From Sorex araneus (taxonomy: Eukaryota; Chordata; Mammalia; Eulipotyphla; Soricidae), in NCBI RefSeq assembly GCF_027595985.1, contig NC_073307.1, forward strand, positions 36,212,234 to 36,276,233: DNA of 64,000 nt, given 5' to 3'. The notes beneath the pieces were generated by a model. The model was given only the letters and a program-made list of their open reading frames with translations. It made no database searches and was not told where the DNA came from. Shown in pieces: positions 22,292 to 58,619 of this stretch (its first letter is position 1; every line of letters begins with the position of its first letter). Made by a program: the position numbers and the translations under genes.

Positions 22292-22474
22292 GAGGCTGGC
22301 GCAATAGCACAGCGGGTAGGGCGTTTGCCTTGCACGTGGCCGACCCGGGTTTGATTCCCAGTATCCCATATGGTCCCCTGAGCACTGCCGGGGTAATTCC
22401 TGAGTGCAGAGCCAGGAGTAATCCCTGTGCAATGCCAGGTGTGACCCAAAAAGAAAAAAAAAAAAAAAAAAAAA
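22292..22474 (+). mobile_element. SOR-type SINE (A-tailed class), nested
   Basis: Sense copy: GAGGCTGGCGCAATAGCACA head, GGGTTTGATTCCC B box, CAGGTGTGACCC, then a long A-rich tail. Flanked by AAAAAGCAAGCAAA on both sides, so it inserted into the composite insert later. Confidence 0.95.
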
Positions 22475-24631: not shown

Positions 24632-24804
24632 GGGGCTGGGGTGATAGCACAGCGGGTAGGGCATTTGCCTTGCACGCGGCCGACCCGGGTTCGATTCCCA
24701 GCATCCCATATGGTCCCCTGAGCACCGCCAGGGGTAATTCCTGAGTGCAGAGCCAGGACTGACCCCTGTGCATCGTCAGGTGTGACCCAAAAAATTTAAA
24801 AAAC
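24632..24804 (+). mobile_element. SOR-type SINE (A-tailed class), near consensus
   Basis: Sense copy with GATAGCACAGCGGGTAGGG, GGGTTCGATTCCC and GGTGTGACCC before an A-rich tail. A perfect 17-bp duplication, AGATGATTTATTAATTT, lies at 24615-24631 and 24805-24821. Confidence 0.97.
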
Positions 24805-25205: not shown

Positions 25206-25372
25206 AAAAAATTAAAAGGAAAAATTAAAAAATGGGTGCAGTCCCTATCAAAATATTTAACCCAAAAAAGGAGAAATGTGACAATAAAATAGGTTTCCCA
25301 TAAACAGAAGAATATAGAATTAAACTTATACAAAAGATAAATTAATTAAATTGGAATTAAGAAAAGAAACAA

Positions 25373-25542
25373 GGGGCTGGAGCCATAGCACAGCGGGTAG
25401 GGCGTCTGCCTTGCACGCGGTCAACCCGGGTTCGATTCCCAGCATCCCATATGGTCCCCTGAGCACCGCCAGGGGTAATTCCTGAGTGCAGAGCCAGGAG
25501 TGACCCCTGTGCATTGCCAGGTGTGACCCAAAAAGAAAAAAA
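25373..25542 (+). mobile_element. SOR-type SINE (A-tailed class), near consensus
   Basis: Sense copy immediately left of the tandem array. A 14-bp duplication, AAGAAAAGAAACAA, lies at 25359-25372 and 25543-25556. Confidence 0.95.
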
Positions 25543-25579: not shown

Positions 25580-27640
25580 TGTATTTAAAAATTAGGGATT
25601 AGGTTTGGGTAAATGTCCAATCTTGAAAATGAAAGTCAGGTATAGAGCTATTGTTAAAATTGGGCTAACTGGAAAAAAAAATTGGGCTAACTGGTAGGTT
25701 TAGGTTAGAATAAGGTTAGTATAGGGTTATTATCATTAGGGGTGTAGATCAGTTTTATAATAGGATCAGGGTTTAGTTTTGACTATATTCAAAGTTAAAA
25801 ATAAATGTTATGTAGAGTGAGATTGTTATAGGTAGACTAATTGGGCATAGTTGTTTTATGCGCAGGGTAGGTAAGGTTAATGTAGGGTTAGGGTTAGTGT
25901 TACTGTAAGATTTAGGGTTAGGATTAGGGATAGTGGTGAGTTAAGGTTTAGATTTTATTTACTTAAATTTGAACATGAAATTTAGGTATAGGAGGATTGT
26001 TCCGTTTCATTGCTAAGTTATGCCTATTCGTAGGCAAGAATTAGTGTAAGAGTTTGGCTAGAACTAGGGTTTGTTTTAGAGTTATTATATGGCTTTTACT
26101 ACGTATAAAATTGAAATTTAAAGTTATTTATAGGGGAAGTGTGAAATTTAGCTTGTTTGGTAGGCTTAGGCCTAGGCTAGGGTAAGGTTGGTAAAAGTAA
26201 GGATTGAGGTTAGAGTTAGGTTAAGGGGTAGGGTTAGGGTTAGGGTTCATGTTAGGATTCAGGATTAGGTTCAGCTATATCTGAAGTAGAACATTGAAGT
26301 TAGATAAGGGCAACTATTAACTTTAAGCTAATTTCCAGGTAGGGTAAGATTGGTATAAGGTTAGTGCTAAAGTTATGTTTAGGGTTAGGGTTACAGATAG
26401 TATCAGGTTTAGGGATTAAGTTTCATTATGTTCATTCTTTAAAATGAAAGTATAGAGTCTAACATTTGGGATAACTATGTTTATTTATTTATTTTTGGCT
26501 TTGGGGGGTGGAGAAGTGATACCTGGTGATACTCATGAGTAACTGCTGGCTCTGCACTCAGGAATTACTTTTGGCAGTACTCAGGGCAACATATAGGATG
26601 CTGAGGGTCAAACCCAGGTCAGCCACATGTAAGGCAAATGCCCTACCCATTGTACTATTGCTCAGGTCCCAGGATAGCTGTAGGTTTAGGTGAGAGTTAG
26701 GGTATATAGGATTTTGACTAATGAGAATTAGTACCAGGTTTAGGATTAGAGTTAGATTTTCTTGATAGGATTAGGATTTAGGTTTGGTGATGTTCAAAGT
26801 TAAAAATCAATGTTACATATATTTATATACATATATACACCTATTAGCCTATGTAACATTATTATATCTATGCAAGTTTAATACAAAGTCACTTTTTAAT
26901 ATAAGACCTGGACTTAACCTGGGTTTAGACTTAGGTAAGTTTAATATTCGATTTAGGATAGGTTTAGCATTGGGGTTAGGTTTTGCAATAAGATTAGGGC
27001 TTAAATTTGGCTATGTCCAAGGCTAAAATTAAATATTATGTATAGGGCAATTGTTCAATTTAAACTAATTGATAGGTTTAGAACTAGACAGGGGTAATTA
27101 GCCCTAATCCTAATGCTAACAGGATTAGCATTAGGATTAGGGTTAAGTTTTGAAATAGGATGAGTATTTAGGTTTGGCTATATTCAAAATTAAAAATTGG
27201 TGTTAAATATAGGGTGATTGTTAAATTTAAGCCAAATGGTTGGTTTATGCCTCAGCTAGGATAAGGTTAGAACAGGGTTAGGGTTAGCATAAGCATAAGG
27301 GTAAGGGATAGAGTTACAGAGTGTTCGAATTAGCATTTAGATCTGGCTATGTTTAAAATTAAAAGTGAAAGTTAGGTATGGGGAACTTTTCTATTTCAGC
27401 TAATTATAAAGGTTTTTTTTTTTTGCTTATTCTTACTTAGGCTTAGTATAAGGGTTCAGGTAAGATTAGGGCTAGAGTAAGGATTAGGGTTAGTATTGGA
27501 GTTTGGATATATTTTTGGCTATGTTGAAAGTTGAAAGTAACAGGTATAAGGCAATTGTTACATTAGGTTGAGTGGCAGGTTTAGGACTAGACTAGAGTAA
27601 GGTTGGTAATGGATTTTGGTTAGGTTAGGGTCTCACTGAT
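25580..27640 (+). repeat. Tandem array of ~170-bp monomers rich in TTAGGG-like motifs
   Basis: About eleven degenerate units. Each has an AT-rich block built on GGCTATGTTCAAAATTAAAA. This is followed by a GGTTTAGG / TTAGGGTTAGGG-like G-rich block. The AT block recurs near 25607, 25782, 25955, 26095, 26274, 26428, 26787, 27010, 27178, 27344 and 27517. Steps are mostly 154-180 bp, one is 140, and the larger gaps are explained by a SINE (26490-26672) and an AT expansion. Three exact TTAGGG repeats occur at about 26229-26247. All G-rich motifs lie on the + strand. No coding capacity. This is a satellite-like or degenerate telomere-related array. Confidence 0.85.
26490..26672 (-). mobile_element. 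SOR-type SINE inserted in the tandem array
   Basis: Antisense, moderately diverged: TACCTGGTGATACTCATGAG, ACATATAGGATGCTGAGGGT, GTAAGGCAAATGCCCTACCC, then ACTATTGCTCAGGTCCC. It shows that the array is older than this SINE. Confidence 0.8.
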
Positions 27641-54733: not shown

Positions 54734-54782
54734 ATGGTCTCCAAGTCGGACCAGCTGCTCATCGTCGTGTCCATCCTGGAAG
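54734..54782 (+). CDS. CEP120: CEP120, first coding exon (residues 1-16 and the first base of codon 17)
   Basis: CEP120 is a centriole protein enriched on daughter centrioles. It works with CPAP (CENPJ) and SPICE1 in centriole elongation and maturation and is needed for cilium formation; human mutations cause skeletal ciliopathy and Joubert syndrome. This exon encodes MVSKSDQLLIVVSILE, the first strand region of the N-terminal C2 domain, and matches the family start. The ATG has an excellent Kozak context. The exon ends GAAG and the donor GTGAGC at 54783 is strong; the intron is phase 1. The full protein is about 986 residues in human, so only the N-terminus lies in this window. Confidence 0.95.

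Positions 54783-58092: not shown

Positions 58093-58619
<527 letters not shown>

Follow-up and report, generated by a model that had tools for sequence, protein, structure and literature searches.

Dispersed, decayed tandem arrays of a composite telomere-like and AT-rich unit in the genome of Sorex araneus

A tandem array in the 64-kb stretch of Sorex araneus DNA (the window; 36.21–36.28 Mb of contig C6, which measures 169 Mb, in an assembly of 2.406 Gb and 65 contigs) is best explained, with a probability of about 0.7, as one of at least 57 relics of an apparently extinct satellite that combined telomeric and AT-rich sequence in one unit, was seeded as short arrays and then decayed. The unit is composite, the copies are dispersed and their decay is star-like. 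The original unit of ~165 bases seems to have carried about eight copies of TTAGGG.

The array in the window

The array consists of eleven monomers arranged head to tail, with the G-rich strand as the + strand and boundaries good to about 10 bases. The features are listed below with the leave-one-out score of each unit; the first coordinate of a unit is its anchor, and the array ends near 27632.

25373..25542, + strand: SINE just beyond the 5' end of the array and not part of it (ends set by eye)
25585..27632, + strand: whole array, 11 head-to-tail monomers
25607..25779, + strand: unit 0, 173 nt, 51.8 bits
25780..25951, + strand: unit 1, 172 nt, 52.2 bits
25952..26096, + strand: unit 2, 145 nt, 35.2 bits
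26097..26271, + strand: unit 3, 175 nt, with TTAGGGTTAGGG at 26234, 64.5 bits
26272..26423, + strand: unit 4, 152 nt, with TTAGGGTTAGGG at 26379, 49.6 bits
26424..26784, + strand: unit 5, split by a nested SINE (161 nt without the SINE), 22.8 bits
26480..26671, − strand: nested SINE inside unit 5 (ends set by eye)
26785..27008, + strand: unit 6, 224 nt, with an AT-rich expansion in its first half, 24.3 bits
27009..27175, + strand: unit 7, with a fold-back palindrome at 27098–27146, 59.8 bits
27176..27344, + strand: unit 8, among the units nearest the family consensus (82% to the 132-nt consensus query), 74.1 bits
27345..27516, + strand: unit 9, 172 nt, 51.3 bits
27517..27632, + strand: unit 10, telomeric part truncated, 39.1 bits

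The sequence-only reading of this stretch had described about eleven tandem units of ~170 bp, and all 11 were recovered when each was scored with a model built from the other ten (22.8–74.1 bits), the maximum among dinucleotide-shuffled controls being 8.6 bits (200 per unit). Pairwise identity of the window units averaged ~61% (range 49–76%), and because the units are only this much alike, Tandem Repeats Finder, which had been proposed as a check, gave no period near 170 on the array. The period was seen in the recurrence of 7-mers, which peaked at 162–173 bases with a smoothed count of 15–23 against a mean of 3.0 (SD 3.3). Since telomere-like words were excluded from this autocorrelation and positions 26474–26673, containing the SINE, were cut out, the period is not due to the hexamers alone. 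The TTAGGG-like motifs also held up, with 17 exact copies of TTAGGG on the + strand of the array; 200 shuffles averaged 5.1 and never exceeded 11. Allowing up to two mismatches, 25 of the 28 + strand occurrences of TTAGGGTTAGGG in the whole 64 kb fell within the array, which is C-poor (9% C, 25% G), and no further units were found by the profile elsewhere in the window.

Two interruptions of the array noted in the sequence-only reading, a nested SINE and an AT expansion, were both located, the former on the minus strand in unit 5 and the latter in unit 6. The nested SINE, relatives of which were found genome-wide in a search with the whole array, has an approximate target-site duplication (GGATAACTATG at 26469 and GGATAGCTGTA at 26672, imperfect repeats matched by eye), and its position in unit 5 between these two repeats indicates that the array is the older of the two. 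The SINE on the 5' side has a duplication of its own, AAGAAAAGAAACAA, at 25359 and 25543. The statement that all units lie on one strand was correct for the array overall and incorrect for a small fold-back of 49 nt in unit 7 (27098–27146), in which a CCCTAATCCTAATGCTAA piece stands opposite its own copy. A similar reversed unit piece was observed at locus L031 (1599–1667 of the array-oriented sequence).

The ancestral unit and its genomic family

A consensus was derived from the window and 12 of the 56 other loci, which were mostly picked for multiple matches, so that long arrays are over-represented in this sample. The profile hit the 13 loci 117 times, with 4 to 21 hits per locus, and 110 rows were aligned; within each locus the hits lie on one strand save for the short reversed piece in L031. 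Unit spacing had a median of 164 (IQR 155–170) over the 77 of 85 spacings that fell between 100 and 230. The 13-locus profile consensus of 169 nt has four parts: ~60 nt of AT-rich sequence, then variant hexamers (TAGGTT TAGGCC TAGGCT AGGGTAAGG), then a telomeric run and finally a variant tail. The run comprises eight hexamers, five of them exact TTAGGG and three off by one base, and alignment of the consensus with (TTAGGG)n scored 49, whereas none of 1000 shuffles exceeded 12. When the loci were split into disjoint sets of six and seven, the two consensus sequences were nearly identical, both having been started from the window's own profile. The number of changed hexamers within the run depended on the version of the consensus, with one in the 13-locus profile, two in the 13-locus plurality and in both half-set profiles, three in the six-locus plurality and none in the six-locus profile; the ancestral hexamer number is uncertain, as alignment slippage can occur within a telomeric tract. 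Telomeric sequence was an integral part of the ancestral unit, with about eight hexamers in the 13-locus consensus, in agreement with the earlier proposal of a nucleosome-length satellite containing telomeric sequence and situated near a gene.

When the shrew's own 2.4-Gb genome was searched with the whole array, the nested SINE swamped the matches and the result was uninformative on the monomer, and SINE-free queries were used instead. The SINE-free window query gave at least 56 matches at no fewer than 34 loci including the window (40 of 57 candidates scored); among the matches listed, identity outside the window array was 66–85%, and several loci had more than one match across 0.3–2.8 kb. 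At least 61 matches came from a 132-nt consensus query that left out the main telomeric tract (40 of 192 candidates scored), and a 32-nt pattern with up to three mismatches gave 30 matches against none for a reversed-pattern control. After clustering at 20 kb, at least 45 loci were obtained from both DNA queries taken together and 26 from the pattern, with 14 in common and a union of at least 57, from which a two-sample estimate places the total at ~82, a lower bound if loci differ in detectability. The assembly search suggested earlier for the monomer has in this way returned at least 57 loci, with tandem copies at the 13 looked at closely. The sequence-only reading had named two outcomes that would count against it, the lack of a ~170-bp periodicity or a consensus representing a single interspersed repeat without tandem copies elsewhere; neither was found, because the telomeric part belongs to the unit and tandem copies exist at other loci. 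The AT block alone, used as a 70-nt query, gave at least 45 matches (40 of 77 candidates scored), and by hand count 43 of the 45 listed lay at known loci and two at new places, bringing the total to at least 59 loci and giving no sign of a separate life for the block as an independent element. A scan of viral contigs for the AT-block pattern returned no matches.

The set of at least 57 loci was spread over 10 of the 12 large contigs in proportion to contig size (chi-square p 0.50, n = 57), the other two, C9 and C10, having no loci where 1.6 were expected on each. The distance to the nearest contig end was uniform (KS p 0.44, n = 57), and no locus lay <5 Mb from a contig end, compared with 2.8 expected; this placement test covers contig ends and middles, and clustering at centromeres is compatible with its result. 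The subtelomeric origin and the link to Robertsonian change raised earlier are not borne out by this placement, nor by the arrays, which run head to tail and not head to head.

Contig starts were represented by 20 stretches totalling 200 kb, nine of them partly or wholly N. Two carry a long intact telomere, and their matches to the unit model are confined to its telomere-like part, from position 73 on. Window array aside, five contig-start stretches match the model, and none of these matches begins before model position 72. Degenerate (CCCTAA)n tracts of 1.1–1.3 kb were observed on the small contigs C13 (L021, 5545–6824) and C20 (L028, 1782–2907) and match only the telomere-like part, so the genome also contains simple telomeric tracts that lack the AT block. 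At the start of contig C7, most of 10 kb (L015, 106–10000) is taken up by a GC-rich satellite with a 27-bp unit, TGGCCGCCACGCATGCGCAGTGCGCTC.

Decay, dispersal and competing explanations

Units of the same locus were barely more similar to each other than to units of other loci. Mean identity came to 0.627 over 387 within-locus pairs and to 0.614 over 4153 between-locus pairs, using the 96 of 110 rows that remained after rows <100 letters were dropped. The gap is tiny, with only 1 of 2000 permutations as high (13 loci), and a six-locus version gave 0.621 within and 0.612 between loci, with 29 of 1000 permutations as high (54 of 61 rows). This slight within-locus excess suggests that a little local duplication or homogenisation occurred. 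There was no sign that the arrays are copies of one multi-unit block (colinearity r 0.028, 89 of 300 permutations as high). In columns 1–92, which precede the main telomeric run, divergence from the consensus was 24% (Jukes–Cantor, 0.29 substitutions per site), and mean identity per locus ranged from 0.73 to 0.83, the top value coming from the three units of L037. Assuming a substitution rate of 3–4 × 10^-9 per site and year, the age of the decay would be of the order of 70–100 million years, with a wide error.

No young copies were present among the matches listed, the best-scoring match of the 132-nt query showing 84% identity and the highest 86% over 69 nt. The top identity listed with the 70-nt query was 89%, and none of the 30 matches to the 32-nt pattern was perfect. 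Very common words are skipped by the DNA search, which is why the pattern search matters for young copies; had readable sequence contained a large homogeneous block, the pattern search should have shown it. No homogeneous block was found in the readable assembly; one may lie in withheld (N) or unassembled sequence.

The flanks of six loci had nothing in common except stretches read as SINE or L1. The arrays end at many unit positions, some of the ends being cut by the fetched stretch or covered by SINEs, a pattern not expected of a mobile element whose termini are fixed. The two array ends of L030 carry an 18-bp direct repeat (16/18), AAAAATATCTCACAATAA / AAAAACATCCCACAATAA, at 725–742 and 2265–2282 in array orientation (the reverse complement of the locus), with 3 of 2000 shuffles as good (2 of 60 in an earlier run). 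The left copy is preceded by GTT, giving a TT/AAAA-like site, and TT/AAAA is the cut-site rule of L1. This repeat suits retroposition or staggered-cut insertion rather than circle capture. No comparable direct repeat was found at the other nine of the ten loci, and among five loci retested with 2000 shuffles only L030 stood out.

A sequence of events that may account for these observations would begin with telomeric or telomere-boundary DNA joining an AT-rich stretch; slippage, unequal exchange or rolling circles would then have multiplied the composite in tandem. Many interior sites would have received short pieces, most likely where breaks captured extrachromosomal copies. The source block would have been lost, with local homogenisation remaining weak, and the copies would have decayed neutrally while SINEs and L1s inserted into them. 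For the dispersal, we infer that satellite DNA, extrachromosomal or broken, was captured at many sites, a route preferred because the flanks are unrelated, the ends are varied and the other nine loci have no direct repeat. No present function is proposed for the arrays. A more specific history is conceivable, although we lean against it: the ancestral monomer may have been a telomere boundary, in which canonical hexamers gave way to variant ones and these to AT-rich subtelomere, and in an ancestor of this shrew it may have broken free as recombining circles, turned satellite, seeded about a hundred interior sites in one episode and died out. If true, this telomere-boundary reading would provide a datable fossil record of telomere-derived DNA entering chromosome arms.

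The arrays could also have spread through RNA, a satellite transcript being reverse transcribed and inserted by the L1 machinery so that each relic is a retroposed piece. The end repeats of L030 at an L1-like cut site would be expected from such a process, which also fits arrays on one strand and varied end positions, but nine of the ten loci are without such a repeat (a weak test, as several ends are SINE-covered) and a poly-A tail is absent by eye from the 3' ends of the window array, L032 and L040, so that this route is considered improbable. A smaller chance still is given to the arrays being former chromosome ends or fusion relics, in which fusions (Robertsonian or tandem) and inversions shifted a subtelomeric satellite into the chromosome interior. 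Chromosome change is a known trait of this group of shrews, and the unit, with its telomeric tract beside variant hexamers, does resemble a telomere boundary. However, such an origin is at odds with 57 loci that are uniform along contigs, with 0 within 5 Mb of the ends and in a number far above plausible fusion points, and with arrays that run head to tail in 13 loci apart from one short reversed piece. The flanks of six loci are unrelated, and the two contig starts with an intact telomere match the unit only in its telomere-like part, from position 73 on. Least credible is that a G-rich, C-poor minisatellite converged on TTAGGG by chance; single units are very degenerate and the strand is C-poor overall, but about eight hexamers stand in register in the 13-locus consensus, and their score of 49 against at most 12 in 1000 shuffles makes such a convergence highly unlikely.

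Relation to known repeats and neighbouring genes

Head-to-tail units under one consensus and copies at several loci are marks of a satellite that are present here, and the long homogeneous arrays and concerted evolution of a typical satellite are absent (0.627 identity within against 0.614 between loci); for lack of long homogeneous arrays, the family is filed as a dispersed, decayed satellite variant. Among mammalian satellites with telomere-like motifs in the unit, the common heavy satellite of cetaceans carries GGGTTA-like motifs in a unit of ~31 bp and is abundant and terminal, whereas the shrew unit measures ~165 bp and is low-copy, interior and apparently extinct. Among the open-licence PMC papers listed, no title or abstract opening described a comparable satellite unit in shrews, and the main text of the Suncus etruscus genome paper contains no word beginning with satellite or telomer. 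The family may well already bear a repeat-library name.

The array contains an internal TTAGGG-like tract, the defining feature of interstitial telomeric sequences (ITSs). Two papers distinguish heterochromatic, short, subtelomeric and fusion classes of ITSs and describe subtelomeric ITSs as having degenerate units mixed with other repeats (PMC6410037, PMC7215372). Assignment to fusion ITSs was rejected because head-to-head tracts are lacking, the 13 loci being one-strand and the sole opposed piece in the window being the 49-nt fold-back. The subtelomeric class was rejected on position, since the window lies at 36.2 of 169 Mb and none of the 57 loci is closer than 5 Mb to a contig end, and the short class because the tract is embedded in a repeated ~165-nt unit with non-telomeric sequence. 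In comparison with heterochromatic ITSs, the array measures 2 kb and forms no large block. The shrew tract and ITSs are alike in having TTAGGG-like tracts at internal sites; the shrew tract differs in belonging to a larger monomer, which occurs in tandem and is dispersed, and in being neither terminal nor head-to-head nor a large block.

Short satellite arrays in euchromatin have been described for the Drosophila 1688 family and for TCAST1 of Tribolium, in passages of a paper that also names transposition or reinsertion from circular extrachromosomal DNA as means of satellite dissemination (PMC5615363). To the extent of these passages, the shrew family is similar in having satellite-length tandem units in short arrays at many euchromatic sites, and the capture proposed above is in line with the dissemination step given there. 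It differs from these systems in having no homogeneous block in the readable assembly, in lying ~24% from its consensus and in containing telomeric hexamers within the unit.

These observations indicate that a satellite monomer can incorporate telomeric repeats and then be found scattered along chromosome arms, and they caution that a telomere-like tract in a chromosome interior need not be the scar of a fusion. Tens of sites would each once have held TTAGGG tracts, and interstitial tracts of this kind are linked to breakage and can bind telomere proteins, according to passages of PMC6410037. The relics offer markers that are comparable across shrews, moles and hedgehogs and that could date the burst of telomere-derived DNA; cross-species comparison could also ask whether relic sites later became breakpoints.

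Downstream of the array, a peptide MVSKSDQLLIVVSILEG with its start near 54734 (hand count) is presumably the N-terminus of CEP120. The gene lies on the + strand, and the following exon matches CEP120 structures (E 2e-33). The array is located ~27.1 kb upstream of this start, matching the ~27 kb given in the sequence-only reading. A copy of the last 94 residues of ribosomal protein SA (uS2) was observed on the − strand at 58152–58436 (E 4e-54) and is probably a processed pseudogene between CEP120 exons. On the other side of the array, tRNA-Ala(TGC) was called at 22297–22369 and at 24637–24709; as the first of these forms the head of a SINE with an A-rich tail, both calls are probably SINEs rather than tRNA genes.
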